From contig JAJEHX010000034.1 of NCBI GenBank assembly GCA_022823465.1, positions 1 through 64,000 of the forward strand: DNA of 64,000 nt. Direction: 5' to 3'. This document shows positions 5,837-22,101 of the stretch, one piece after another. The notes beneath the pieces were generated by a model. The model was not told the DNA's origin, searched no databases, and saw only the letters and a program-made list of their open reading frames with translations. Source of the DNA: Candidatus Latescibacterota bacterium (GTDB lineage Bacteria > JAAXHH01). Position 1 is the stretch's first letter, and every line of letters begins with the position of its first letter. The position numbers were made by a program, and so were the translations under genes.

Positions 5837-5897
5837 ACGCCTGCATGGTACAGGCTCACCCCTGAAATCGCAACTGTTTTCTTGGTGAGAAAAAACC

Positions 5898-5926
5898 TTG
5901 ACTTTACCGCCGGCCCGCGCTATAAT
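5898..5926 (+). promoter_or_regulatory. Sigma70-type promoter of the trp-aro-tyr-phe supraoperon
   Basis: TTGACT at 5898-5903, a 17-bp spacer and a perfect TATAAT at 5921-5926. Transcription would start near 5933, about 48 nt before the trp leader peptide. A short palindrome TTGCGCAA at 5926-5933 overlaps the predicted start site and could be part of an operator, but no known repressor site is recognised. Confidence 0.88.
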
Positions 5927-5980
5927 TGCGCAATTCAGATCAGGAAGTCGAACCGGTTTCACAGCAGACAATGGACTGAA

Positions 5981-6100
5981 ATGACAGCCGTCAACTCCTC
6001 CCGGTCATCGCGATTCCACTATTGGCGGAAGCAGAGCGATCTGTTTACCTGGTGGCCTTTTTATGGGACGAGGCGGCATGTCATGCGAAGCGGCGCCTGA
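5981..6100 (+). CDS. trpL: trp operon leader peptide with tandem Trp codons
   Basis: A 39-codon frame runs from ATG 5981 to TGA 6098-6100. It contains Trp codons at 15, 24 and 25, the last two as TGG-TGG in FTWWPF. It lies between the promoter (5898-5926) and an intrinsic terminator (6133-6170) upstream of trpE, the standard layout of ribosome-mediated trp attenuation. The ribosome binding site is weak (GGACTGA just before the ATG). No other in-frame start lies between the predicted transcription start and this ATG. The peptide is longer than the 14 residues of E. coli TrpL. Confidence 0.8.
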   Translation: MTAVNSSRSSRFHYWRKQSDLFTWWPFYGTRRHVMRSGA

Positions 6101-6132
6101 TTGAAGTAGATTCATCCTTCGTTGATCTGACC

Positions 6133-6170
6133 GGCCTCTACCCTTACAAGGTAGCGGCCTTTTTTGTTTT
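6133..6170 (+). terminator. Intrinsic terminator acting as trp attenuator
   Basis: GGCCTCTACC (6133-6142) pairs with GGTAGCGGCC (6150-6159) with one mismatch and a 7-nt loop, followed directly by a T tract. It ends about 78 bp before trpE. The sequence GAGGC at 6070-6074, just after the tandem Trp codons, can pair with GCCTC at 6134-6138. That would break the terminator stem and serve as an antiterminator core. Confidence 0.85.
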
Positions 6171-6248
6171 ATACGGACAGGATCACGGCAGGCCGCTCGA
6201 AGTAGAGGATATCCAAGGGTTCTTGTCACCACGTAAAGGTCTGTAACC

Positions 6249-7736
6249 ATGTACAGGACATCCTACGACACCTTTCTGGAATACAACGGCAAACCCGACT
6301 TCCCCCTGGTGCCCATCTGGCACGAACGCGACCTGACGGATGAAACGCCCGAAGACACCTACCACAGGATCAGCGCGGGATACCGTTACGCCTTCCTGCT
6401 GGAGAGCATGGAGGGCGATCAGAAAACGGCGCGGTATTCATTCGTGGGCGCGGACCCCTTCGAGCGTATCGTCGGAACGAAACAGGGGATCAACCGGATT
6501 AACGACCGGGGCGTGCTGACGCTGGAGGGCAACCCCATCGAGCTGATGCGGGAGATCATGAAGGAATACCGGACCCCGGTGCTCGAACACCTGCCCCGGT
6601 TCACGGGAGGCGCGGTCGGTTATTTCGGGTATGACGTCGTCCGGCACTTCGAGGATATCCCCGACGAGAATCCGGATGACCTGGCGATGCCCGACCTGCA
6701 TTTCATCGTGGCGGGGAAGATCGTGGTATTCGACCACGCGCGAAAACGCATGTACGTGATCGTCAACATGCTGTCCAATACCACCGATCCGGAGTCCGCC
6801 TACGAGCAGGGCATGACCCAGGTGGACGACATGCTGAAGCGGATCGACCAGCCGCCGCCTTCCGACTTCTCATTCGAAGAAGGCCCGTCTTCCGGATGTG
6901 ACCGCGCCGTGTCGTCCAACATGACGCGGGCGGATTTCGAGGACACGGTGCGGACGGCCAAGGAGTACATCGCGGCGGGCGACATCTTCCAGGTGGTGCT
7001 TTCCCAGCGGTTCAGCATGGCAATCGATCGGGACCCCTTCGACGTGTACCGGGCCCTCGCCAGGCTGAATCCATCGCCCTATCTCTTCTACCTGCGGCTG
7101 GACGACGTGCATATCGTGGGTTCCTCGCCCGAGACGATGGTGCTCGCGGAAAACCGGAGAGTGACGGTACGGCCCCTTGCCGGGACGTGCCGGCGGGGTA
7201 CGGACGAAGCGGAAGACCGGCTGTTGATCGAAGAGATGCTAAACGATCCGAAGGAGCGCGCGGAACACGTGATGCTGGTGGACCTGGGCCGGAACGATAT
7301 CGGCCGCATCTGCGAGTACGGCACGGTTCGAACGACGGAACTGATGGGGATAGAGCGGTATTCCCACGTGAGCCACATCGTCTCGAACGTGGAGGGGCGC
7401 CTCAGGGAAGGCGTTGACGGCTTCGACGTGCTGGAGGCGACCTTCCCCGCCGGGACCCTTTCCGGCGCGCCGAAGATACGGGCCATGGAGATCATAGATG
7501 AACAGGAGACCGCGCGGCGGGGCGTGTACGGCGGCGCATTGGGTTATTTCGGCTTCTCTGACAACCTCGATCTGTGCATCACCATACGGACGATGGTCAT
7601 AAAGGACGGCCAGGCCTATATCCAGGCGGGCGCCGGCATCGTCGCGGACTCGGACCCCGGCAAAGAGTACGAAGAATGCCGGAAGAAGGCCGAGGCGCTG
7701 CTCCGGGCCCTGAAGGAAGCCGAGGTGGTATCGTGA
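6249..7736 (+). CDS. trpE: Anthranilate synthase component I
   Basis: This 495-aa enzyme converts chorismate to anthranilate together with TrpG. The N-terminal domain carries LLES (residues 50-53), the motif associated with tryptophan feedback inhibition. The C-terminal chorismate-binding domain shows [27 protein letters not shown] and [12 protein letters not shown]. The ribosome binding site is AAAGG upstream of ATG 6249. It is the first structural gene of the supraoperon, behind the attenuator, and its stop overlaps the GTG start of trpG. Confidence 0.97.
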
Positions 7737-8305
7737 TCCTGGTCATCGACAATTACGACTCCTTTACCTACAACCTGGTCCAGTACCTCGGGGAACTGGG
7801 GCAGGACATCGTCGTGCACCGGAACGACCGGATTTCCCTGGATGAAATCGAGGCGCTCGATCCGGACCACCTGGTCCTCTCACCGGGACCGTGCACGCCC
7901 GATGAGGCTGGGGTTTCCGTCGACGCGGTCCGTAGATTTTCCGGCCGTATCCCCATCCTGGGCGTCTGCCTGGGACACCAGTCCATCGCCCAGGCCTTTG
8001 GCGGTCGGATCGTCCGGGCGCCCGATCCGGTACACGGGAAGACCTCCTCGATCGCTCACGACGGGACGTCCATCTACGATCGGCTGCCGAACCCCTTCAC
8101 GGCGACGCGTTATCATTCGCTGATCGTGGAAAATGAGACGCTGCCAGAATGCCTGGCGGTGACCGCGCACTCGGAGGACGGCCTGATCATGGGACTCAGG
8201 CACGGTTCCCTGCCCGTTTTCGGCGTACAGTTTCACCCGGAGTCCATCCTGACCGAGGTCGGAAAGCAACTGTTGCGGAATTTCGTGGAGACGGAGCACG
8301 CATGA
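7733..8305 (+). CDS. trpG: Anthranilate synthase component II (glutamine amidotransferase)
   Basis: This 190-aa class I amidotransferase supplies ammonia to TrpE. It begins [15 protein letters not shown] and has the nucleophile Cys79 in GVCLGHQ and the His-Glu pair in QFHPES. The start is GTG 7733, overlapping the trpE stop as GTGA. Upstream in-frame starts would read through the trpE end and give unrelated sequence. The stop overlaps the trpD start (ATGA). Such stand-alone TrpG proteins often also serve PabB, which is not seen here. Confidence 0.96.
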
Positions 8306-9312
8306 TTCAGCAAGCCATATCGAAAGCCATCGAGGGGAACTCGCTGACCGAGGCCGAAGCGATGGAGGTCATGGAAGGGATCATGTCCGGCGACGCGACG
8401 CCCGCTCAGATCGGCGCCTTTCTGATCGCATTCCGGCTGAAGGGCGAAACTATCGAAGAAGTCACCGGCTTCGCTAGGGTCATGCGCGCCCGGGCCACGC
8501 GGATCGAATGCCGCGCCTACCCCATCGTGGATACCTGCGGTACGGGGGGCGACGGCAAGCATACCTTCAACATATCGACGGCGGCGGCTTTCGTGGCCGC
8601 GGCCGCAGGCGCCTTCATCGCCAAGCACGGCGGCCGCGCCGCGTCCAGCAAGGCGGGCAGCGCGGATGTGTTGACGGCCCTGGGGGTCGACATCGAGACG
8701 CCGCCGGAGCGGGTCGCGGACTGCATCGACGAAATCGGAATCGGTTTCATGTTCGCCCCCGCCCTGCATTCGGCCATGCGGTTCGCGAGCGGTCCGCGCC
8801 GTGAACTCGGCGTGCGGACAGTGCTCAACCTGCTGGGCCCGCTGACCAATCCGGCCGGTACGACGGCGCAGGTCATGGGCGTATACGACGGAAGCGTCGT
8901 TCAGACCGCGGCCCACGTACTGAACAACCTCGGGGCGGAGCGTGCCTTCGTGGTGCACAGCGCGGACGGACTGGACGAGATCACGACCACGGCGCCGACC
9001 CACGTGGCGGAAGTCAGGGACGGCACCGTCAGGACCTACGATGTCGCGCCGGAAGACTACGGTCTGCCGCGCGCTTCAATAGAAAACCTTAAGGGTGGCG
9101 AGGCGGAGGAGAACGCCGCGATCATCCGATCCCTGCTGGAGGGGGAAAAGGGTCCCCGCAGAGACATCGTGCTGCTGAATGCAGCCGCGGCAATCGTCGC
9201 CGGCGGCAAGGCGGAGGATTTCGACGAGGGGATCGCCAGGGCGGCCCGGGCGATCGACTCCGGGGCGGCAAACGCCAAACTGGACGCGTTGATCAGGATG
9301 ACCAACGAATAA
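8302..9312 (+). CDS. trpD: Anthranilate phosphoribosyltransferase
   Basis: It joins anthranilate to PRPP. The 336-aa protein has the PRPP-binding loop [14 protein letters not shown] (from about residue 76), [17 protein letters not shown] and the GPLTNPA segment typical of TrpD. The ATG at 8302 overlaps the trpG stop by 4 bp and gives the normal family length. A longer in-frame version would begin inside trpG. Confidence 0.97.
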
Positions 9313-9354
9313 GCACTTGGTATCAGCGGGACGCGGACGCAGGAAGGGCGAAGC

Positions 9355-10167
9355 GTGGCAGCCATGAATATTCTGGACCAGATCGTAGCGCACAAGATCG
9401 ACGAGGTCGAAGACCGGAAGCGACGCACGCCGCTGCCGATTGTCGAGCCCGGACCCCGCGTGGACATTCGGCCCTTCGACCGTGCGCTCAAGCAGGACGA
9501 CGGCGTCGGCGTCATCGCCGAATTCAAGAAGGCTTCGCCCTCTAAAGGCCCCATGTGCCCCGATGCGATACCCGATGAGATCGGTCCGGTCTACGCGGCG
9601 CACGGGGCCTCGGCCATTTCGGTGCTGACGGACCGGCGGTTCTTCCAGGGGTGTGACGAGGACCTGGTTGCGTTGCGCCGGAGCGTGCCGGTGCCGGTGC
9701 TGCGCAAGGAATTCATTGTAGACGAATACCAGGTCCACGAGACCGCGGTCCTGGGCGCGGACGCCATGCTGCTGATCGCGGCGGTACTGGACGATGCCCG
9801 CCTGGCGGCACTGCAGCGGACCGCGGCGGCATACGGCCTGCACTGCCTGGTGGAAGTACACGACGAGCGGGAGCTGGACCGGGCCCTGGATGCCGGGAGC
9901 GGTATCATCGGCATCAACAACCGGGACCTGACGGATTTCACCGTTTCGCTGGATACTTCGCTGAGGCTGAGGCCGCGCATTCCCGATGGGATCGTGACCG
10001 TGAGCGAGAGCGGGATACATACCCGGGACGACGTCCTTCTCCTGCAGCAGGCGGGGTTCGACGCCGTACTCGTGGGCGAGTCCCTGATGGCGGCAAACGA
10101 GGTCGGCGGACAACTGGACGCCCTGCTGGGCCGGGCGCCCGTGCGAACAGGACAGGGGGCTGAATGA
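9355..10167 (+). CDS. trpC: Indole-3-glycerol phosphate synthase
   Basis: This (beta/alpha)8 enzyme of 270 aa closes the indole ring. It shows VIAEFKKASPSKG (catalytic Lys), SVLTDRRFFQG, VLRKEFIVDEYQ, LVEVHDERE, GINNRDL and VSESGIHTRDD, all in family order. The GTG at 9355 is chosen because AGGAAG lies 8 nt upstream. The ATG at 9364 (MNILDQIVAHK) would be an equally normal N-terminus. It is separate from trpF, unlike the E. coli fusion. Confidence 0.95.
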   Translation: MAAMNILDQIVAHKIDEVEDRKRRTPLPIVEPGPRVDIRPFDRALKQDDGVGVIAEFKKASPSKGPMCPDAIPDEIGPVYAAHGASAISVLTDRRFFQGCDEDLVALRRSVPVPVLRKEFIVDEYQVHETAVLGADAMLLIAAVLDDARLAALQRTAAAYGLHCLVEVHDERELDRALDAGSGIIGINNRDLTDFTVSLDTSLRLRPRIPDGIVTVSESGIHTRDDVLLLQQAGFDAVLVGESLMAANEVGGQLDALLGRAPVRTGQGAE

Positions 10168-10186
10168 TCTCCCTTCGGATACGATA

Positions 10187-10801
10187 ATGAATACGGTCAA
10201 AATCAAGATATGCGGCATCACGAACGAGGCGGACGCCACCACGGCGGTCCGGGCTGGCGCGGACGCGCTGGGGTTCATTTTTTATAGGGGCAGTCCCCGC
10301 TACGTTGAGCCGGTACGGGTCGCGGAAATGGTTGCCGGCCTGCCGCCCTTCGTCGTCCCCGTGGGCGTATTCGTGAACGCGGCGGCCGATGAGGTCGGCG
10401 AAATCTGCGAGACCACGGGTATCCAGGTCGCCCAGCTCCACGGCGATGAGTCGCCGGGTTATTGCAGTAAGCTGGACCGGCCCGTCATCAAGGCCTTTCG
10501 CGTCAGGGACGATTCCTGGAAATCCGATGCCGCGGCCTATGGCGTCGGCGCGGTGTTGCTCGATACTTTCGCCGAAGACCGCTACGGCGGGACGGGGCTT
10601 ACATTCGACTGGCGGCTCGTGGAAGGCAGTCCCCACCGCGTCATTCTGAGCGGCGGACTGAACCCCCATAACGTGGCCGAAGCCGTGCGGCGCGTGCGAC
10701 CCTACGCCGTGGATACGGGAAGCGGCGTTGAACGGGAACCGGGCCGCAAGGATCATGGCAAGATCCGGGCCTTCGTGGAGGCCGCGAGGGGATCGTCATG
10801 A
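10187..10801 (+). CDS. trpF: Phosphoribosylanthranilate isomerase
   Basis: This 204-aa TIM-barrel enzyme catalyses the Amadori rearrangement before TrpC. The start VKIKICGITN carries the catalytic Cys. LGFIFYRGSPRYV, QLHGDE, VLLDTF and VDTGSGVEREPGRKDH follow as usual. It lies 19 bp after trpC, and its TGA overlaps the aroE ATG. Confidence 0.96.
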   Translation: MNTVKIKICGITNEADATTAVRAGADALGFIFYRGSPRYVEPVRVAEMVAGLPPFVVPVGVFVNAAADEVGEICETTGIQVAQLHGDESPGYCSKLDRPVIKAFRVRDDSWKSDAAAYGVGAVLLDTFAEDRYGGTGLTFDWRLVEGSPHRVILSGGLNPHNVAEAVRRVRPYAVDTGSGVEREPGRKDHGKIRAFVEAARGSS

Positions 10802-11691
10802 GCACTCAAAATGAAAACAGACTCCCGGGACTTGCGATTTCCGGTTCGACCCGCGTGGTGGGGGTATGCGGCCAGGGCATCGGATACACTTTGTCGCCGG
10901 CCATGCATAACGCCGCCTTTCGGCATTGCGGCCTGGATTACGTGTATGTAACCTTTGAAATCGCGGCAACCGCCCTTCGACAGGCGGTAGACGGGATCCG
11001 GGGACTCGGGCTGGCGGGCGTCAACGTGACCAAGCCGCTCAAGACGGACGTGCTGCCCTACCTGGACGAGGTGTCCGACGAGGCCCGAAGGGTCGGTTCG
11101 GTCAATACCATCGTCAACCGGTCGGGCCGGCTCGCCGGCGCTTCGACAGACGGCGCGGGACTCCTGCGGGCACTGGAGGAAAAGGGGATCGACGTCAGGG
11201 ATTCCAGGGTGCTGATCCTGGGCGCGGGCGGAGCGGCCCGGGCAGCCTGCGATATGGCAAGGAACGCGGGGGCGGACTCGATTGCCATAGCCGCCCGCAA
11301 CGCGGCGCGGGCCCGGGACACCGCGCAGTTGGGCGGCGCTTCGATAGTTGCACTGGAGTCGGGTGAACTGAGGCCGGCGCTCGGAAACGCCGACCTGGTC
11401 ATCAACGCAATCCCCACGGACCTGAAGCTGGACAAGGACTGGTTCCGCGCGGATCAGTTCGTCTACGACACGCGCTACGACCAGGAGGAAACCGCGTTGA
11501 TCCGGTGTGCCCGGTCCCGGGATGCGGGCGCGTCGAACGGCATCGATATGCTGCTGTTTCAAGGCGCGGCGTCATTTGAAATCTGGACAGGCCGGACGAC
11601 GCCGGTCGAGGTGATGAGAAGCGCCCTGGAAGATCAGGTGCGGCGCCGGGCGGTTCAGGACGGAACCGGTCATGCGGGACAACCGGTATAG
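10798..11691 (+). CDS. aroE: Shikimate dehydrogenase (NADP)
   Basis: It reduces 3-dehydroshikimate to shikimate. The 297-aa protein has the substrate-binding segments GYTLSPAMHNAAF and GVNVTKPLKTDVL (catalytic Lys), NTIV, and the dinucleotide fold LILGAGGAARAA. The C-terminal GIDMLLFQGAASFEIWTGR is typical. It begins MSTQNENRLPG with GAGGGG just upstream and is coupled to trpF by a 4-bp overlap. Confidence 0.96.
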   Translation: MSTQNENRLPGLAISGSTRVVGVCGQGIGYTLSPAMHNAAFRHCGLDYVYVTFEIAATALRQAVDGIRGLGLAGVNVTKPLKTDVLPYLDEVSDEARRVGSVNTIVNRSGRLAGASTDGAGLLRALEEKGIDVRDSRVLILGAGGAARAACDMARNAGADSIAIAARNAARARDTAQLGGASIVALESGELRPALGNADLVINAIPTDLKLDKDWFRADQFVYDTRYDQEETALIRCARSRDAGASNGIDMLLFQGAASFEIWTGRTTPVEVMRSALEDQVRRRAVQDGTGHAGQPV

Positions 11692-11793
11692 TTATTGAGC
11701 AGAGGCCGTCCGCGCGGGTACACCGGCCGGCGGCATTGAACGCGTGACGGTCCGGAGCTGGTCGGACCGGGAACCTCGAAATCTGGAGAAGGC

Positions 11794-12951
11794 ATGTTAC
11801 GATACCTGACCGCAGGTGAATCACACGGACCGGCGATATCGGCGATCCTCGAAGGATTGCCCGCTGGGGTGCCGGTCCGGGCGGAAGAGATCAACCGGGA
11901 TCTGAAACGGCGCCAGGGCGGATACGGACGGGGCCGGAGAATGCAGATCGAGACCGATACGATCGAGATCCGGGGCGGCGTGCGCCACGGAAAGACCATG
12001 GGAGGGCCGGTTTCCCTTGTGGTCCAGAACCAGGACTGGAAGAACTGGACGGACGTGATGGCGATCGAGGAGGCCGATGGTCCGGTGCGACGCCAGGTGA
12101 CCCGGCCCCGGCCGGGGCATGCCGACCTTGCGGGCGGTTTGAAATACGACCGCCGCGACCTGCGGGACGTCCTGGAACGGGCGAGCGCCCGGGAAACGAC
12201 CATGCGGGTGGCCGTCGGCGCGATCGCCCGGGCGTTCCTGGCGGAATTCGACATCCGCGTGCTCAGCCACGTCGTCCGCATCGGACAGGTGGACGCCGAC
12301 GTGGCCGGCCTTTCGAACGACGAAATCCTGAAAGGGGCCGAGCGTTCACCCGTGCGTTGCGCCGACGAAGACGCGGCGGAGAAGATGATCGGAGAAATCG
12401 ACCGGGCGAAGTCCCTCAAGGACACGATCGGCGGCGTCTTCGAGGTCAAGGTACTGAACGCGCCGCCCGGCCTGGGCAGCCACGTGCAGTGGGACCGCAA
12501 GCTCGACGGACGCCTGGCCCAGGCGGTCATGAGCATCCAGGCCGTAAAGGGCGTCGAGATCGGCCTGGGCTTCGGGGTGACCCAGGTGCTGGGTTCCGAG
12601 GTTCATGACGAGATCTTCTACGGCGATGGCCGGTTTTACAGGGAAACGAACCGGGCCGGCGGCATCGAGGGCGGCATGACCGAAGGCGAGGAAATCATCG
12701 TGCGCGGCGCTCTCAAGCCCATCGCGACCCTGATGCGCACCATCATGTCGGTGGATATCGAGACCAAGGAAGCCTTCGATTCCGCCAAGGAGCGTTCCGA
12801 CGTCTGCACCGTGCCCGCCGCCGGCGTGATCGGCGAAGCGGTGGTGGCCTTCGTCATCGCGGACGCCATGCAGGAGAAGTTCGGCGGCGACAGCCTGGAT
12901 GAAATGAAGCGGAACTACGTGGGATACAAGGCTCAATTGGCGCGTTACTAG
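11794..12951 (+). CDS. aroC: Chorismate synthase
   Basis: It forms chorismate from EPSP using reduced FMN. The 385-aa protein starts MLRYLTAGESHGPAI, with the family motifs RRQGGYGRGRRM, PRPGHADLAGGLKY and RASARETTMRVAVGAIAR, and RSDVCTVPAAGVIGEA near the C-terminus. GAGAAGG precedes the ATG. The 102-bp gap after aroE is the widest within the supraoperon and shows no terminator. Confidence 0.97.
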   Translation: MLRYLTAGESHGPAISAILEGLPAGVPVRAEEINRDLKRRQGGYGRGRRMQIETDTIEIRGGVRHGKTMGGPVSLVVQNQDWKNWTDVMAIEEADGPVRRQVTRPRPGHADLAGGLKYDRRDLRDVLERASARETTMRVAVGAIARAFLAEFDIRVLSHVVRIGQVDADVAGLSNDEILKGAERSPVRCADEDAAEKMIGEIDRAKSLKDTIGGVFEVKVLNAPPGLGSHVQWDRKLDGRLAQAVMSIQAVKGVEIGLGFGVTQVLGSEVHDEIFYGDGRFYRETNRAGGIEGGMTEGEEIIVRGALKPIATLMRTIMSVDIETKEAFDSAKERSDVCTVPAAGVIGEAVVAFVIADAMQEKFGGDSLDEMKRNYVGYKAQLARY

Positions 12952-13013
12952 TACGAGCGCCTGAACCGTCACCGACCGGTCGTGCGGCCTGAGCCGGTAC
13001 CGGACCGTGTCGT

Positions 13014-14639
13014 GTGCGGGGGGCAGTTGGAACGTTGAAGAATACAGGACAAAGGAAAGCCGGCGGCATCGTTCTGATCGGCTTCATGGGCACCGGGAAG
13101 ACGGCGGTGGGAAGACGGCTGGCACACGCCCTCGGCGTGCCCTTCGTGGACACCGACACCCTGATCGAGGAGAAGACCGCGACGAGTATACCGGCGCTCT
13201 TCGAGACACGGGGCGAACAAGGTTTTCGGGCGGTCGAGAAGGAGGTCATCCGCGGTCTGGCTGACGGGGAGCGCAAGGTGATCGCCACGGGCGGCGGCGC
13301 GGTGCTCGATCGGGACAACTTTACCGTGCTGCAGTCTCTCGGTTCGGTCATCCATCTGAACGCGCCGGCGTCGACCATACTGGCCCGGACGAGAGGCGAC
13401 GCCGGGGTCAGACCTCTTCTGGCCGGAGAGGACCCGCTGGAACGGATCCGGTCGCTGCAGCGGGAGCGCGCTCCGGTTTATGGCCAGGCGGATCACGAAG
13501 TCGACACGTCACGGCATACAATTGACGAGACCGTGGAGATGGTCATGGCATGGACACTAGGCAGCGAACAGGTAATCCGGGTGGACCTGGGGGCCGCCAG
13601 CTACGATATCGTGATCGGACCCGAGTGTCTCGGCCGACTGGGCCCCTTGATGAGATCCTTCGACCTGACTGACCGTGCGCTGGTCGTAACCCATCCTGGC
13701 ATTGGCTCGCTATACGGAGAGCGGACGACGGAGTCCCTGCGGTCGGCCGGGTTCGAACCGGCCGTCATCGAGGTGCCGGACGGCGAAGGACAGAAATCGC
13801 TGGAATGGGCCGAGAAGCTCTACGACGCGATGCTGTCCCACCGCATGGACCGCCGTTCCCCCGTCATTGCGCTGGGCGGCGGGGTGATCGGGGACCTCGC
13901 CGGCTTCGCATCGGCCACCTTTCTGCGCGGCGTCCCATTTGTTCAGGCGCCCACTTCTCTCCTGGCACAGGTGGACGCCAGCGTGGGCGGCAAGGTCGCC
14001 GTGGACCACCGGCGCGGGAAGAACCTGATCGGCGCGTTCTATCAGCCCCTGCTCGTGCTGGCCAGCCTGGATACGCTCGACAGCCTGCCCGACCGGGAAC
14101 TGCGCGCGGGCATGGCGGAAGTGATTAAGTATGGGGTCATTGCAGACGCCGGCCTTTTCGCCTATATTGAGGGTCGCCTTGACGAGATACTCGGGCGCGA
14201 CAGCGGCGTGCTGGCCCACCTGGTGGCCCGGTCCTGCGAGATCAAGGCGGACGTGGTCGCCGGGGACGAGCGCGAACAGGGACGGCGGGCCATTCTCAAC
14301 TTCGGTCACACCATGGGTCACGCCATCGAGACGCAGACCGGCATGCTGCACGGGGAGGCGGTTTCGATCGGCATGGTCTACGCGGCCCGCGTGGCGGAAC
14401 GCATGGGCGTGGTGGACGGCGAAGGCGTCGGGCGGCTGATTGATCTCGTGAGGCGTACTGGGCTGCCGCAACGGTGCGACGGACTGGACGTCGCCGGGAC
14501 AATCGAAACCATGAAGCTCGACAAGAAATCGGTCGGGGGCCGCCTGCGGTTCATCCTGCCGAAACGGATTGGCGAAGTGGTCATCCGGGACGATGTGCCC
14601 GATGAGTACGTCCGATCGGTCCTGACGACGGGAAACTGA
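13014..14639 (+). CDS. aroKB: Bifunctional shikimate kinase / 3-dehydroquinate synthase (AroK-AroB fusion)
   Basis: One 541-aa protein joins two shikimate-pathway enzymes. Residues about 18-180 are shikimate kinase (P-loop [31 protein letters not shown], lid Arg in [13 protein letters not shown]). Residues about 190-541 are NAD-dependent dehydroquinate synthase ([25 protein letters not shown], metal ligands in [16 protein letters not shown] and [10 protein letters not shown]). The join has no stop or frame change. The start may be GTG 13014 or TTG 13035. Similar fusions are known, for example in Thermotoga. The two steps it catalyses are not consecutive in the pathway. Confidence 0.94.
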
Positions 14640-14673
14640 ACGGCGGCTGGTCCGCTTGAACCGGGATGGAATC

Positions 14674-15120
14674 TTGAAAATACTCGTGTTGCACGGTCCG
14701 AATCTGAATATGCTGGGGGTCCGGGAACCGGAGGTCTACGGTAGCGATACCCTCGAGGACATCAACCGGTCCCTCGAGTCGGCCGCGGCGGACCGGGGGG
14801 TCGAGTTGCGCATTCGCCAGTCCAATCACGAAGGCGTGCTGGTGGACGAGATTCAGCAGGCCCTCGGACGGGAGGACGGGATCCTGATCAATCCCGGCGC
14901 GTACACCCACACGAGCATCGCCCTGCGCGATGCGATCGTCGCCGTGGGCCTGCCCGTTCTGGAAGTCCACATGTCCGACATACATGCCCGGGAAAAGTTT
15001 CGACATCACTCCTACATCGAAGCTGTGGCGCTCAGGCAGATCTGCGGCCATGGAAGCAAAAGTTATCTGTTGGGCCTGGAGGCCCTGGCCGATCATATCG
15101 GGAAGGGGAGCGAGGGATGA
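14674..15120 (+). CDS. aroQ: 3-Dehydroquinate dehydratase, type II
   Basis: It dehydrates 3-dehydroquinate. The type II signature appears as [20 protein letters not shown], with [33 protein letters not shown]-like sequence and the catalytic Tyr and His in place. I prefer the TTG at 14674 (148 aa, [10 protein letters not shown]), because it matches the usual N-terminus and has GGGATGGA upstream. A TTG at 14656 would add six residues. The stop overlaps the trpB start as ATGA. Confidence 0.93.
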
Positions 15121-16322
15121 CCGCCACCGCACTGCCTGACGAAAGAGGGCATTTCGGAGTCTTCGGCGGCCGTTACGTCCCGGAAACGCTGATGACGGCC
15201 CTGGACGAACTCCTAGAGGTCTATGAAGCGGCGAAGCGGGATCCGGCCTTCGAGGATGAATTCCGCTACTACCTGGGGGATTACGTGGGCCGGCCTTCCC
15301 CGCTGTACTACGCGGAGCGGCTGACGGAGACCCTAGGCGGCGCACGGATCTATCTCAAGCGGGAAGATCTGAACCACACGGGCGCCCACAAAATCAACAA
15401 CACCATCGGTCAGATCCTGCTGACCCGGCGCATGAAGAAACCCCGGGTCATCGCCGAGACCGGGGCCGGGCAGCACGGCGTGGCCACGGCCACCGTGGCC
15501 GCCAGATTCGGCCTGGAATGCGACGTCTACATGGGTACCGAGGACATGGAACGCCAGGCGCTGAACGTCTTCCGCATGCGCCTGATGGGGAGCCGGTGCA
15601 TCGGCGTCGACGCGGGGAGCCGCACGTTGAAGGACGCGCTGAATGAAGCCTTGCGCGACTGGGCGACCAATGTCCGCCATACCCATTACATCATCGGATC
15701 CGTGGCGGGACCCCATCCCTTCCCCATGATGGTACGTGACTTCCAGTCGGTCATCGGCCGCGAGGCGCGCGAACAGATCCTCGAGAAAGAAGGACGGTTG
15801 CCGGATGCGCTCGTCGCCTGCGTGGGGGGAGGCAGCAATGCCATCGGGCTCTTTCATCCCTTTCTCGACGACGACGTTCGGCTGGTCGGCGTGGAAGGGG
15901 CGGGACACGGGCTCGATACCGGCCTGCACGCCGCGACGCTGGGCCTGGGCACGCCGGGTGTATTGCACGGCGCCATGAGCTATACGGGACAGGACGCCAA
16001 CGGCCAGATCCAGGTCGCTCATTCCATCTCCGCCGGACTGGACTATCCCGGGGTGGGACCCGAGCACAGCTACCTGAAGGACTCCGGCCGGGCGGAATAC
16101 GTCAGCGTGACCGACGACGAGGCGCTGGAGGCCTTCGAACTGCTGTCCAGGGTCGAAGGCATCATACCCGCCCTGGAAAGCGCCCACGCAATCGGCCATA
16201 TCGCCCGGATCGCCCCGGAAATGGACCGGGACAGGGTTATTGTCCTGGGGCTGTCGGGCCGCGGGGACAAGGACGTCCAGCAGGTATACGGATTCATGGA
16301 CCAGGAGCGGATGGAGCACTGA
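15117..16322 (+). CDS. trpB: Tryptophan synthase beta chain
   Basis: It condenses indole with serine using PLP. The 401-aa protein starts with [17 protein letters not shown] and has the PLP lysine in [36 protein letters not shown] and the end region [13 protein letters not shown], all of the TrpB1 type that pairs with TrpA. The ATG at 15117 overlaps the aroQ stop. trpA follows immediately. Confidence 0.98.
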
Positions 16323-17159
16323 ATGAACCGTATTGAAGAGACCTTCGCATCGCTTAAATCCGCGGACCGGAAGGCACTGGTCCCGTACATCATGGCGGGA
16401 GATCCGGACCTGGAAACGACCGCAGCGCTGGTCGTGGAACTGGATCGCCGCGGCGCCGACCTGGTCGAACTGGGCGTTCCCTTCTCCGATCCCATCGCGG
16501 ACGGTCCCACGATTCAGCGCGCCGCGCTGCGGGCCCTGGACCAGGGTACGACCCTTCGGGACGTCGTCGATACGGTCGGTTCCATCCGGGAGCGGTCCGA
16601 AATACCAATCGTCCTGATGACCTATTACAACCCGGTGCTCGCGTACGGGATCGGGGACTTCTCCCGGGACGCCGCCGGCGCGGGCGTGGACGGTCTGATC
16701 GTGCCCGACCTTCCGCCGGAAGAAGGGGCCGAACTGTCCGTCGCTTGCCGGCGGCATGGACTCACCGTCGTTTTTCTGGTGGCGCCCACGAGCACTACGG
16801 ACAGGATCGAACTGGTGAACCGTCACACCACAGGATTCGTCTACTGCGTCTCCCTGACCGGCGTTACGGGCGCCCGGGGAAAACTGGCGGACGGTGTGGA
16901 CGAGTTCATGGCGCAGGTGCGGTCCCACACGGACCGGCCCCTTGGCCTGGGATTCGGCATATCGTCGCCGGAACAGGCCAATGAGGCCTCGCGCCTGGCC
17001 GACGGGGTCATCGTGGGCAGCGCTATCATCAACGTGATGGAAGAACACGCCGGTAAGCCGGACCTGCTCCGGCTCGTGGGCGAATACGTGGCTTCGCTGA
17101 GAGCGGCCATAGACAGAACAGGCATAGACGGAAAGACCCCGGCGGCCGCGCCAGGGTAA
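16323..17159 (+). CDS. trpA: Tryptophan synthase alpha chain
   Basis: It cleaves indole-3-glycerol phosphate and channels indole to TrpB. The 278-aa TIM barrel has YIMAGDPDLETT, the catalytic Glu in ELGVPFSDPIADGPTIQ, the catalytic Asp in VDGLIVPDLPPEE, and GFGISSPEQ near the phosphate site. The ATG directly abuts the trpB stop (TGA-ATG). Confidence 0.97.
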   Translation: MNRIEETFASLKSADRKALVPYIMAGDPDLETTAALVVELDRRGADLVELGVPFSDPIADGPTIQRAALRALDQGTTLRDVVDTVGSIRERSEIPIVLMTYYNPVLAYGIGDFSRDAAGAGVDGLIVPDLPPEEGAELSVACRRHGLTVVFLVAPTSTTDRIELVNRHTTGFVYCVSLTGVTGARGKLADGVDEFMAQVRSHTDRPLGLGFGISSPEQANEASRLADGVIVGSAIINVMEEHAGKPDLLRLVGEYVASLRAAIDRTGIDGKTPAAAPG

Positions 17160-17181
17160 AATCCACATTCCAGGAGGGACC

Positions 17182-17547
17182 ATGGTCCGGGGCGTTCGAG
17201 GCGCCATAACCGTTGAATTGAATTCCGCCGATGCCATTGGAGAAGCTTCCCGGCGACTGCTTTCGGCGATCGTCGACGTCAATCGCATCGAATTGGAACA
17301 GATCGTCAGCGTCATCTTTTCGGCGACGACGGATCTAGACGCGGAGACACCTGCTCTTGGGCTGCGCCAGATGGGATGGACGTCGATTCCCCTGTTCTGT
17401 ACGCAGGAGATGGAAGTCCCTGACGGACTGCCCCGGTGCATACGGGTTCTTGTACATGTAAACACGGGCAAATCGCAGAATGAAATGCGGCATGTATACC
17501 TGGACGGCGCCGTCACGCTCCGGCCGGACATCGCCGAGGGAGGCTGA
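17182..17547 (+). CDS. aroH: Chorismate mutase, AroH class
   Basis: This 121-aa protein of the trimeric Bacillus subtilis-type chorismate mutase family converts chorismate to prephenate for Tyr and Phe. It has [11 protein letters not shown] (active-site Arg), [18 protein letters not shown] (Arg of the active site) and [13 protein letters not shown] with the conserved Tyr. It is monofunctional and not fused to TyrA, PheA or DAHP synthase. AGGAGGG precedes the ATG. Confidence 0.94.
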
Positions 17548-17548
17548 A

Positions 17549-18565
17549 ATGGTGGTCGTAATGAAACTTCAGGCTACAGAAGAGCAAAAGGAGCACGTCC
17601 GGGAGACTATCCGGGCCTTCGGCTGTAAACCGCGGGATATACAAGGTGACGAAATGACCATCATCTGCGTCATCGGAGATACCCTGAGTCTCACACCGGA
17701 ACAGTTTGAAATCCTTGACGGAGTGGACCGTGTCCAGCGTATCCAGCGGCCTTACAAGCTGGTGAGCCGGGAGGTGCAGCCGCATAAGACCAGGTTTCAG
17801 GTGGGCAACGTTACCATCGGCGGCGACCGCATCACCATCATCGCCGGCCCCTGTTCCGTGGAATCCTACGAGCAGTTTCTGACCGCGGCGCAGCACGCGC
17901 GGGCGGCGGGGGCCCACATCATTCGGGGCGGAGCGTTCAAGCCGAGGACTTCCCCCTATAGTTTCCAGGGTCTCGGAGAGGAAGGCCTCGAGATCATGGC
18001 CCGGGTCAGCGAGGAAACGGGTCTGCCGACCATCTCGGAGGTGATGGAACCGGAGACGGCACCTATGGTGTCGGAGTACGTGGACATGTTGCAGATCGGC
18101 GCCAGGAACATGCAGAACTACCCGCTGCTGAATGCCGTGGGACAGAGTGCCAGGCCTGTCATGCTCAAGCGGGGAATGTCCGCCACGCTCGAGGAGATGT
18201 TGCTGGCGGCCGAGTACATCCTGGCGGCGGGGAACCACAACGTCGTCCTGTGCGAACGGGGCATACGGACCTTTGAAACGTGGACGCGGAATACGCTCGA
18301 CATCTCTGCCGTCCCCGTGTTGCAGAAATACACCCATCTGCCCGTGTTCATCGACCCGAGCCACGGGACCGGCAACGCGGATTTCGTGGGACCGGCCTCC
18401 CGGGCGGCGGTGGCGGTCGGCGCGGACGGGCTCATGATCGAGATGCATCCCAGTCCCGAGCGTGCGCTATCGGACGGAGACCAGTCCCTGACGCCCGAAG
18501 CGTTTGCCTCGCTGATCCCGGAATTGCAGGCGGTCGCGGCGGCCGTGAATCGTTCCATCGACTGA
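17549..18565 (+). CDS. aroF: 3-Deoxy-7-phosphoheptulonate (DAHP) synthase, type I-beta with N-terminal regulatory-type domain
   Basis: It catalyses the first step of the shikimate pathway. I chose ATG 17549 (338 aa), which has GAGGGAGG upstream and lies just after the aroH stop; an ATG at 17561 is possible. Residues about 1-70 form a ferredoxin-like domain as in Thermotoga maritima DAHP synthase, where it mediates Tyr/Phe feedback. The catalytic barrel has [47 protein letters not shown] and DPSHGTGN. Confidence 0.95.
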
Positions 18566-18573
18566 GTTCGGCT

Positions 18574-19437
18574 ATGCGTATCACCATTATCGGAGTGGGA
18601 CTGCTGGGCGGATCCTTCGGCATGGCGGTCCGGAAGGCGGGCGCGGCGGACCTGGTCGCGGGCGTCGACCTGGATCGGGACACGCTGGACCGGGCCCGCG
18701 AGCGCGGCGCCATTGACGTGGGGTACCTCGAAGTGGCCGAGGGCGTGGCCGGGGCCGACCTGGTCGTCCTCGCCACGCCGGTGCGGTCCATCCTGGAGAT
18801 GCTGCCCGGCCTGGCGCCGATACTGGGCCGGGAGACGATCCTCTTCGACCTGGGCAGCACGAAGGAAGCCATCGTCTCCGCCGTCGCGGCCCTGGCCGGC
18901 ATCAGGCGGTACGTCGGCGGCCATCCCATGGCGGGCACCGAGCACACCGGCATCGAGCACGCCGAGGACGGGCTGTTGCGCGAGGCGACTTTCGCCCTGG
19001 TGCCGCCGCCCGCGGTGGATGAACGGGCCGTCGATCTGCTCGCGGACCTGGTTCGCCGGATCGGCGCCCGTCCCGTCGTCATTTCCGCCGAACGCCATGA
19101 CCGGATCGTCTCCGTCACAAGCCATCTTCCCTATCTGTTGTCCGTCGTGCTGGCGCTTGCCGCGGAAAACATGGCACGCGGGGAAAGCCGGACGGGGGAG
19201 TTTACCGCGTCAGGGTTCCGGGACACCTCCCGCCTGGCCGCGTCCAACGTGCGCGTGATGGCCGACATCTGCCTGACCAACAGGCGGCCCTTGTTACGCG
19301 CCGTCGAGGAAGCCAGGCGGTTGCTGGACGGCCTGGCGGAGCAGATCGAACAGGGGAACGAAACGGAGTTGGTGAGGACGTTGACGGAAGCGAAGGAAAG
19401 CCGGGCGGCGGTGTCCGGTGAAAGGAGAACCGATTGA
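18574..19437 (+). CDS. tyrA: Prephenate dehydrogenase
   Basis: It oxidises prephenate (or arogenate) on the way to tyrosine. The 287-aa protein begins MRITIIGVGLLGGSFGMAV, a Rossmann dinucleotide motif, and has FDLGSTKEAI, GGHPMAGTEHTG and HDRIVSVTSHLPYLL. The Asp in AGVDLDRD after beta-2 suggests NAD rather than NADP. It has no mutase or ACT domain. The start ATG 18574 lies 8 bp after aroF, and the stop overlaps the pheA TTG start. Confidence 0.94.
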   Translation: MRITIIGVGLLGGSFGMAVRKAGAADLVAGVDLDRDTLDRARERGAIDVGYLEVAEGVAGADLVVLATPVRSILEMLPGLAPILGRETILFDLGSTKEAIVSAVAALAGIRRYVGGHPMAGTEHTGIEHAEDGLLREATFALVPPPAVDERAVDLLADLVRRIGARPVVISAERHDRIVSVTSHLPYLLSVVLALAAENMARGESRTGEFTASGFRDTSRLAASNVRVMADICLTNRRPLLRAVEEARRLLDGLAEQIEQGNETELVRTLTEAKESRAAVSGERRTD

Positions 19438-20276
19438 AGCGGTACAGGACCGGCTTCCAGGGCGAACTGGGAGCCTTCAGCGAGATGGCGGTGCTCGAGT
19501 ATTTCGGCGAAGCGGCGGAACCCGTGCCCCACGGGTGGTTCGACGACGTGTTCCGCGCCGTGGAGCAGGGCCGCTGCGACTACGGGATGCTGCCTATCGA
19601 AAATACGCTGGCGGGCAGCATCCACGTCAATTACGACCTGATGCAGGAGCACGATCTGCAGATCGTCGGCGAAATCGTCCTTCGCATCGTCCACAATCTG
19701 ATGGCGAAACCGGGTGTCCGTCGGGAGGAGCTGCGCAGGGTGCAGTCCCATCCCAAGGCGCTGGAACAGTGCGTGCGGTTTTTCCGGGAGAACCCTTCGT
19801 TGAAACCCGAAACCGTGTACGATACCGGTGGCGCGGCCAAGATGCTCTGCGAAGGAGAGGCCCGGGACGTCGGCGTGATCGCGAGCACCCGGGCGGCGGA
19901 GCGCTACGGACTGGAGATCCTGGAGAAGGGGATCGAGGACAACGCCCAGAACTATACCCGTTTCCTGGTCCTGGCCAGGGAAGCGGAACCATCGGAAGGC
20001 GAGCGTTTGAAGACGTCCATCGTTTTCTCGGTTCCCCACGAGCCCGGCATGCTGTTCAAGGCCATGAGCGTGTTTGCGTTACGGGACATCTCCATCAACA
20101 AGATCGAATCGCGGCCCCTGGTCGGATCCCCTTGGGAATACCTGTTCTACCTGGATTTCGAGGGGCACGCGGAAAGCCTGCTCTGCAGCCGGGCGCTCAA
20201 CCATCTCCGGGAGATCGCGGCCGACTTCAGACTGCTGGGATCCTACGCCGAAGGCAGGATCGTGGATCGGATCTGA
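19434..20276 (+). CDS. pheA: Prephenate dehydratase with ACT domain
   Basis: It converts prephenate to phenylpyruvate. The 280-aa protein has FQGELGAFSE, MLPIENTLAGSIHVNYDL, IASTRAAERYGLEIL and the catalytic Thr-Arg-Phe in NYTRFLVL, then a C-terminal ACT domain (about 190-275, with ESRP and LFYLDFEGH) that usually binds phenylalanine. The TTG start at 19434 is supported by AAAGGAG 7 nt upstream and by the TTGA overlap with tyrA. It is the last gene of the supraoperon. Confidence 0.95.
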   Translation: MKRYRTGFQGELGAFSEMAVLEYFGEAAEPVPHGWFDDVFRAVEQGRCDYGMLPIENTLAGSIHVNYDLMQEHDLQIVGEIVLRIVHNLMAKPGVRREELRRVQSHPKALEQCVRFFRENPSLKPETVYDTGGAAKMLCEGEARDVGVIASTRAAERYGLEILEKGIEDNAQNYTRFLVLAREAEPSEGERLKTSIVFSVPHEPGMLFKAMSVFALRDISINKIESRPLVGSPWEYLFYLDFEGHAESLLCSRALNHLREIAADFRLLGSYAEGRIVDRI

Positions 20277-20316
20277 CGGGTGTGAGCCTGACGGGGGTGA
20301 GTCTGACGGGCGTGGA
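20272..20316. repeat. 15-bp tandem repeat, three units, spanning the pheA stop
   Basis: Units TCTGACGGGTGTGAG, CCTGACGGGGGTGAG and TCTGACGGGCGTGGA run from 20272. The first includes the pheA TGA stop (20274-20276). The period preserves frame, so each unit carries a TGA in the pheA frame. The repeat fills the space before the converging rqcH gene. Confidence 0.8.
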
Positions 20317-20325
20317 AGTTTCGGG

Positions 20326-22101
20326 TCATCCGGGACCGGGCGTATCCGGCGAATCGGCCTGCCTGAGTGCCAGTCTGGGCTCGACGAAGAGCGTTTTTTC
20401 CCGGGTGAAGATGACCTGTCCGGGCGCGCCGTTCTTCATCTTCCGGACGTAACGGCGTTCGGTGTAGTCCACCGGCACCGTGGTGGACCCCCGGCCCTTG
20501 CTGAAGTACGCGGTCAGGCTCGCCGCTTCATAAAGGGTCTTCCGGCTCGGCATCTGTGTTTTGTCCACCCGCCGCAGAATCACGTGGGAACCGCCGAGGT
20601 TCCTTGCGTGGAGCCAGATGTCGTCCGGCGCCGCCGATTTGGTGAGCGCTTCGTTTTCCCGGCTGTTCCGGCCCACGAGCAGCAGGTGCCCGCCGGAGGT
20701 CAGGAACCTCCTCGGGTGGATGTCCCCCTTGGCCTTATTGCGCGATCGTTTCGAGACGTCGGGCTTGCGGGGCGCCTTGACCAGGTCCAGCCTGATGCAG
20801 GCCCGGTGGGCTTGCTCCAGCGCATGCTCGCCCGTGTCGCGCGCCAGCGTATCGCGGATGCGCGTAACGTCTTCCAGGCGTTTTCTCGCCCGGGCGATCC
20901 GGTGCGTCACTGCCTTCCGGCCGTCCCTGGCTTTTCGTGCCTGGCGGAAGTACCACCGGGCGTTTTCCGACGGGGACAGGTCTGGCTTCAGCGGTATGGC
21001 GATTTCCTCCCGGCCCCCGCTGAAATAGTCTTCGACCCTGGCTTCCGTCAGGCCCGCTTTCAGACGGCCCATGTGAGACGTGATCAAGTCGCCGTACCTG
21101 CGGTATTCCTCCTCCCGCTCCGTGTGTGCCAGGTCGCGTGCCAGGTTCCCCGTCAATCGTTCCAGGCGCCGTATTTCGTCCCGCAGGGCGCGCTGAACCT
21201 TCGTTTCAAGTTGCTTCTTCTCTTCTTCGGCCATCCGGTCTTCGTAGAACCGTACTACGGCGTCGCTGATGGAGCCGTAGCCTTCGACCTGTTTCTCCGG
21301 CAAGGAGTGGATCGGGACCGCTGAAACGATCCGGGCCCTTCCGTCCGGCAATCGTCCGAGGCAGGGCGTCCAGTCCCTGGACCGGACACGGCGGACAAGG
21401 TCCCGAAGGCTCTGCCATAGCCGGTCGACGCGGGCGTCCGGGTCCGAATCGGCCGGATCCGGCGGTTCCGCCAGGCCCGCGTGGGCCAGGACCTCACGGG
21501 CCGCTTCCCTGGAAAGCCCCGCGAACGTGCCGGCCAAATGCCGCGCCAGTTCATCCGGAGTCGACAGCCTGCCCGTTCCTTCCAGATGTTCGCGCGCAGC
21601 TTCGCTCAGCGGCGTTTTCTTCATTGGCCGTGGAAACGCGTAGGCCGCGCCCGGGACCAGCGATCTTTCGGTCTCGCGGATGCGGCGGAGGGTCTCCAGG
21701 ATAACCCGGTCCGGTTCGGAGAGGAACACCAGGATGCCCCGGTTTCCGATGAGTTCGGCGATCAGGCGGTAGCCGCGGGGCCCGGACGAAGACCGCCCCG
21801 TGCAACGTATGTCCACCACCCGTTCGAAGGGCGTCGCCTCGATCTTCTCCACGTTACCGGGGATGAGGTGGTCACGCAGCGCAGTGAGCAGCGCGGACGA
21901 AGCCACGCTCTTTTTCGCAGTATCCGACAAATGCATCCGGGCGAAACCCGGTTGGACGGAGAGAGACAGCCACCGCCTGCCCGCGCCACTCTTGAGCGCA
22001 AGGCCTATTTCCGTGGGCCCGTACTGGTCAATGGCGGCAATACGCGCGCCCTCCAGGTCCCTGCATTCATCTATCACGGCCTGCAACGTCAGGGCGTCCA
22101 T
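20326..22101 (-). CDS. rqcH: NFACT / RqcH family ribosome-quality-control protein
   Basis: This 591-aa protein has the NFACT-N domain (about 1-200), a helical coiled middle (about 290-440) and the NFACT-R domain near the C-terminus (FLTSGGHLLLVGRNSRENEAL, IWLHARNLGGSHVILRR). RqcH binds obstructed 50S subunits and adds Ala tails to stalled peptides. The Asp-Arg pair important in Bacillus RqcH appears as Glu-Arg in TPFERVVDIRC. It stands alone on the minus strand between two plus-strand operons and converges with pheA. Confidence 0.88.
   Translation of the reverse strand: MDALTLQAVIDECRDLEGARIAAIDQYGPTEIGLALKSGAGRRWLSLSVQPGFARMHLSDTAKKSVASSALLTALRDHLIPGNVEKIEATPFERVVDIRCTGRSSSGPRGYRLIAELIGNRGILVFLSEPDRVILETLRRIRETERSLVPGAAYAFPRPMKKTPLSEAAREHLEGTGRLSTPDELARHLAGTFAGLSREAAREVLAHAGLAEPPDPADSDPDARVDRLWQSLRDLVRRVRSRDWTPCLGRLPDGRARIVSAVPIHSLPEKQVEGYGSISDAVVRFYEDRMAEEEKKQLETKVQRALRDEIRRLERLTGNLARDLAHTEREEEYRRYGDLITSHMGRLKAGLTEARVEDYFSGGREEIAIPLKPDLSPSENARWYFRQARKARDGRKAVTHRIARARKRLEDVTRIRDTLARDTGEHALEQAHRACIRLDLVKAPRKPDVSKRSRNKAKGDIHPRRFLTSGGHLLLVGRNSRENEALTKSAAPDDIWLHARNLGGSHVILRRVDKTQMPSRKTLYEAASLTAYFSKGRGSTTVPVDYTERRYVRKMKNGAPGQVIFTREKTLFVEPRLALRQADSPDTPGPG

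Follow-up and report, generated by a model that had tools for sequence, protein, structure and literature searches.

A probable ribosome-mediated attenuator with Trp, Phe and Tyr leader codons ahead of a 15-gene aromatic operon in a Candidatus Latescibacterota bacterium

That trp and pheA can be attenuated by a translating ribosome is textbook knowledge, and E. coli ilvGMEDA and thr are known examples of multivalent leaders, for the branched-chain amino acids and threonine. The ilvGMEDA operon is listed among attenuated operons (PMC1183508). A Phe-Tyr-Phe leader is located before aroF of Corynebacterium glutamicum, and it is reported to have responded to Phe but failed to respond to Tyr (PMC11802643). 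Attenuators before large aromatic supraoperons, including that of Desulfovibrio vulgaris, were predicted from Merino's database (PMC1173090). No description of a mixed Trp/Phe/Tyr leader or of a trivalent design was found in the full-text literature outside most subscription journals.

The window analysed was a stretch of 64,000 nucleotides from contig JAJEHX010000034.1 of a Candidatus Latescibacterota bacterium, and all features given below lie on the plus strand unless otherwise stated. An earlier note on this DNA had claimed a near-consensus promoter, a 39-codon leader with TGG-TGG and one more Trp codon, a terminator hairpin with a T tract ahead of trpE, and a 15-gene aromatic supraoperon, and all of these parts were recovered. 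The promoter is sigma-70-like (TTGACT-17-TATAAT, 5898-5926) and matches the consensus at 11 of 12 positions, whereas promoter-like sites occurred at 0.2 per kb in shuffled sequence. TTGACT/A with a TATAAT-like -10 was found by pattern in 15 of the 16 genomes of the order, and the 16th can be read as TTGACTT...TATAT. The leader ORF MTAVNSSRSSRFHYWRKQSDLFTWWPFYGTRRHVMRSGA extends from 5981 to 6100 (ATG at 5981, TGA at 6100, 39 codons), and its stretch RFHYWRKQSDLFTWWPFYG contains three Trp, three Phe and two Tyr. The TGG codons are at positions 15, 24 and 25, the Phe codons at 12, 22 and 27, and the Tyr codons at 14 and 28; the Phe and Tyr codons had been overlooked in the earlier note, which recorded the Trp codons only. 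The intrinsic terminator, GGCCTCTACC-7-GGTAGCGGCC-TTTTTT, is a GC-rich hairpin located at 6133-6165 with a folding energy of -15.3 kcal/mol (z -3.1).

A deeply conserved element upstream of the promoter, GCAACTGTTTTCT (5870-5882), occurs at the same place in 15 of the 16 genomes, with one extra copy in one genome only. It was considered as an operator of the aromatic operon and rejected because its distance from the promoter is variable. The best reading of its minus strand, which contains a likely -35 (TTGC), is the -35 region of the divergent promoter of a musI-like membrane protein gene, and the operator reading was therefore set aside; the conservation of the element exceeds what a -35 box requires. 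The genes lying upstream (membrane protein, tmk, phosphatase, sugar isomerase and aspS) were also conserved where the sequence permitted checking.

The gene content from 6249 to 20276 was supported by NCBIfam in the order trpEGDCF-aroE-aroC-aroKB-aroQ-trpBA-aroH-aroF-tyrA-pheA. The operon begins with trpE (6249-7736, TIGR00564), trpG (7733-8305, TIGR00566), trpD (8290-9312, TIGR01245), trpC (9355-10167, NF001377) and trpF (10187-10801, NF002298), which are followed by aroE (10798-11691, TIGR00507) and aroC (11794-12951, TIGR00033). An aroK-aroB fusion (13014-14639) exceeded the cutoff of the aroB model TIGR01357 and matched shikimate kinase models in its N-terminal part. The type II dehydroquinase gene aroQ (14656-15120, TIGR01088), trpB (15117-16322, TIGR00263) and trpA (16323-17159, TIGR00262) come next, then the chorismate mutase gene aroH (17182-17547, TIGR01796) and the DAHP synthase gene aroF (17552-18565, TIGR01361). 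The product of tyrA (18580-19437, with a predicted start) best matched prephenate dehydrogenase models, none of which reached its own cutoff, and the last gene is the prephenate dehydratase gene pheA (19434-20276, NF008865), beyond which lies a convergent rqcH-like gene. A scan from 6249 to 20400 gave no internal promoter-like site, where shuffled sequence would contain 2.4, and two weak sites resembling terminators against an expected 8.2; the 15 genes would presumably be carried on a single transcript. Judged by sequence, aroF is the sole DAHP synthase gene of the genome: a second PF00793 gene, beside a KdsB-like gene, looks by eye like KdsA, and the search of the genome for a class II DAHP synthase was negative. 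The aroA gene is located elsewhere. Hence, the operon amounts to the pathway without aroA and an aminotransferase. The corresponding operons of two relatives, G013 and G012 (L144 and L145), carry in the gap between trpA and aroH an extra gene of ~410 aa, LOR/SDH-type-like by eye, which is absent from the genome of the window. No combined supraoperon was seen among 79 other trpE loci within the sequence examined around each.

The conservation of the element was evaluated in 16 genomes of the order, namely, the 12 of the genus of the window (lineage G000) and G012, G013, G014 and G015, and these count as only five independent lineages because regions 2-4 of the element are nearly identical within the genus. 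The pattern of the terminator arms had exactly one match in each of the 16 genomes, always at this locus, and a covariance model of regions 2-4 agreed, with a single copy at the same syntenic place; the same model returned nothing convincing in 368 other genomes. The conservation of terminator and leader once per genome in all 16 argues that the attenuator did not arise by chance. The leaders outside the genus are MTTVTYFPISFMGYWRQSFLFTWRPFYGKRRDVKRSHEHE (G013), MSFMLPVFFSYSFRPFWQAFRFVWRPFYPAIARRDTTRS (G012, Phe-rich with 8 Phe and 2 Trp), MCDAHRSPQSFRPYLFQAWPWRPFPFTPWYFYGFPVGREVRRSIEPGL (G014) and MTFIVSPISVYRIQAWLWRVFPFTRWFFTGLR (G015). In all five lineages, the leader frame and the terminator arms are retained along with a mixed W/F/Y cluster, which remains in frame despite differences in upstream length. 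Relatives that keep the terminator and lose the Trp codons or the frame, which had been named beforehand as evidence against an attenuator, did not occur. A leader ORF with end-product codons (Trp, Phe and, less so, Tyr) was present in 16 of 16 genomes. The tandem TGG-TGG is peculiar to the genus and absent from the other four of the five lineages. The peptide core WWPFY/WRPFY occurs in three lineages; G014 and G015 lack it but have the aromatic codons. Codons 13 and 14 vary within the genus (HY, YA, DY, YY, NY), yet one of them is always Tyr in 12 of 12 genomes. Summed over the five lineages, the 193 leader codons include 13 Trp against 0.6 expected, 27 Phe against 5.7 and 11 Tyr against 4.6, where the expectation was the composition of the operon's own proteins, the Tyr excess is modest (P 0.007), and the P values of the codon excess are indicative because the lineages share ancestry. 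This aromatic excess was seen in the genus leaders in frame 0 only and not in the other two frames.

Two alternative helices accompany the terminator (3:4). Region 1, at the leader start (5981-6002), pairs according to the folds and pair counts with region 2 (6065-6093) if the leader is untranslated, thereby hiding the start codon. Region 2 also forms the 5' arm of the predicted antiterminator, and region 3 (6114-6143, with an approximate 5' limit) forms its 3' arm and includes the 5' arm of the terminator (6133-6142). GAGGC at 6070-6074 is able to pair with GCCTC at 6134-6138, as had been suggested. In the 2:3 helix, 91.5% of the alignment cells were paired, versus 34-54% when the arms were slid, and 6 pairs had changed on both sides, versus 1.6 in shuffles. 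For the 1:2 helix, 90.6% were paired, versus 24-56% when slid. The MFE z-scores were modest (-1.6 for the 2:3 fold and -1.5 for the 1:2 fold). The pair counts, an alignment-based measure, support both alternative helices.

The predicted response of the leader to a stalled ribosome was explored by folding the RNA free downstream of the ribosome with each codon in turn in the A site, at a footprint of 13 bases; with footprints of 10 and 16, the pattern moved by one codon but was otherwise unchanged. This treatment supposes folding at equilibrium and a given footprint, and it leaves region 1 behind the ribosome out of account. In all five lineages, untranslated and fully translated leaders were predicted to form the terminator, and an internal range of stalls was predicted to give antitermination. 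The range covers codons ~5-24 in the leader of the window, codon 21 giving an intermediate value. A stall in the first aromatic block (F12 H13 Y14 W15, 6014-6025) was predicted to cause antitermination. In the second block (F22 T W24 W25 P F27 Y28, 6044-6064), F22 and W24 lie inside the range, W25 lies at its edge, and F27 and Y28 lie beyond it. A stall at W25 was predicted to be mostly terminating in this leader and intermediate in most sister genomes. F27 and Y28 were rejected as sensors because stalls there were predicted to terminate at footprints of 10, 13 and 16 in the leader of the window. The ribosome would meet F12, Y14 and W15 before the later aromatic codons, so that each aromatic amino acid has its earliest codon inside the predicted range, here and in G013.

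The predicted ranges of G012, G014 and G015 were shorter or broken. Phe, Tyr and Trp codons fall inside the range in the genus and G013, Phe and Trp codons in G012 and G015 (some marginally), and Phe codons only in G014; many aromatic codons of G012, G014 and G015, including all Tyr codons, fall outside it. When each leader was shuffled 60 times, the real size of the range was reached by 2% of the shuffles for G000, 3% for G012, 2% for G013, 25% for G014 and 5% for G015, and the switch of G014 is therefore unsupported by this test. According to the stall scan and the pair counts, the antiterminator excludes the terminator and the control codons are suitably placed, weakly so in G014.

What signal the leader senses was weighed against the same evidence. 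The main rival is an attenuator in the style of E. coli trpL, in which the Phe and Tyr codons are incidental and only Trp shortage raises the operon. The Trp codons do show the greatest excess over expectation, W24 and W25 lie at the edge of the predicted range in the genus, and several other phyla have leader-like ORFs rich in Trp ahead of trpE. However, the Phe excess is nearly as significant, the tandem Trp is retained in a single lineage of five, the leader of G012 is dominated by Phe, and the operon also contains tyrA and pheA; a Trp-only attenuator was judged unlikely. The earlier note had read the element as a Trp attenuator, and the attenuator is well supported, whereas its restriction to Trp is not, because the tandem TGG-TGG is missing from most lineages and a mixed Trp/Phe/Tyr cluster is kept. 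Given this loss of the tandem, the retained mixed cluster and one Phe-rich lineage, the leader probably senses the aromatic amino acids together.

Control by a signal other than charged tRNA read by codons, such as a protein of the TRAP or TrpR type, a T-box, or a free amino acid that arrests the ribosome as in TnaC, was given little credence. Such control of these genes is established in other bacteria, and the WWPFY/WRPFY core conserved in three lineages could hint at an effect of the nascent chain. Against this, neither TrpR nor a T-box was found in the genome of the window, TRAP was not found in the order, and the Rfam search of the window returned four tRNAs only, with no attenuator or riboswitch match and no Trp_leader (RF00513) at the gathering score; moreover, the loss of the core in G014 and G015 leaves the aromatic codons in place. 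A plain terminator with a constant fraction of readthrough and a leader ORF of no regulatory role was considered even more improbable. The terminator is indeed the most conserved part of the element, but the leader frame and aromatic codons are conserved as well, and the two mutually exclusive conserved helices are positioned as an attenuator needs.

A ribosome-mediated transcription attenuator whose leader is multivalent for aromatic amino acids is therefore considered likely. The conserved leader frame, codons and alternative stems lend good support, at the level of comparative genomics, to ribosome-mediated attenuation before the whole-pathway operon. When charged tRNAs are plentiful, a translating ribosome would pass codon 26 and cover region 2, the 3:4 hairpin would form, and transcription would stop before trpE. 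When Trp, Phe or probably Tyr is short, the ribosome would stall at F12, Y14, W15, F22 or W24, region 2 would pair with region 3, the terminator arm would be sequestered, and the 15-gene transcript would proceed. If the leader is untranslated, region 2 would pair with the leader start and termination would follow. Sensing of Trp and Phe is the best supported, and that of Tyr is less so and the least certain; the Phe-not-Tyr response in C. glutamicum counts against Tyr sensing here. The fully trivalent form, in which a shortage of Trp, Phe or Tyr acts through one terminator on nearly the whole pathway (from DAHP synthase to the three branches, minus aroA and the aminotransferase), is favoured by a slight balance of the evidence.

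The first gene behind the attenuator differs within the genus. In 10 of the 12 genomes, the place of trpE and trpG is taken by a fused TrpE-TrpG of ~740 aa, of TIGR01815 type by a match tested for G001 (L149:793-4199) and by the same arrangement in the other nine. The fused gene sits between the same attenuator and trpD, and the element thus persists independently of the first gene, which makes the replacement a natural experiment within the genus. A trpS gene follows the fused gene in the genomes inspected, except G011, and the Trp-tRNA synthetase would itself be controlled by the attenuator there. Trp auxotrophy of most genus members, suggested by the apparent absence of trpE, was dropped because the divergent fused TrpE-TrpG stands in its place.

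If true, the proposed design would parallel, for aromatic amino acids, the multivalent ilv leaders, as a codon-only OR gate for three amino acids, and would place under a single switch a pathway that other bacteria divide into separately controlled units. Detailed evidence for ribosome-mediated attenuation now also covers an uncultured order, and the analysis offers predictions on which codons of a mixed leader serve as sensors. Separately, unrelated genomes (L030 and L047) have, ahead of trpE, leader-like ORFs that contain WWW or WW and lie close to terminators, and Trp-type attenuators therefore look widespread outside Proteobacteria.

The locus shares with E. coli trpL a promoter, a leader ORF with Trp codons, exclusive 1:2, 2:3 and 3:4 stems and a terminator before trpE. 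It differs in its 39 codons (14 in trpL), in the Phe and Tyr codons of the cluster, in that its region 1 coincides with the start of the leader and not with the control codons, and in the predicted control of aro genes, tyrA and pheA. E. coli pheL is likewise a ribosome-mediated attenuator of an aromatic branch, coded by Phe, but it responds to Phe alone and controls pheA alone (PMC11802643). The aroR-aroF leader of C. glutamicum also precedes a DAHP synthase operon (PMC11802643, PMC4046766), whereas its Phe-Tyr-Phe motif is without Trp and the trp operon there has a separate leader. The E. coli ilvGMEDA and thr leaders likewise combine codons for several end products in a single leader, although these are branched-chain amino acids and threonine and not aromatics. 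A likeness in breadth is offered by the D. vulgaris supraoperon aroA'-aroB'-pheA-aroF-tyrA-[trp], in which one putative attenuator precedes linked Phe, Tyr and Trp genes (PMC1173090). That supraoperon has another gene order and begins with the alternative dehydroquinate route, and the likeness drawn here concerns its gene content. The breadth of control that the earlier note had thought undescribed in this kind of lineage is, given the D. vulgaris prediction, not wholly without precedent.
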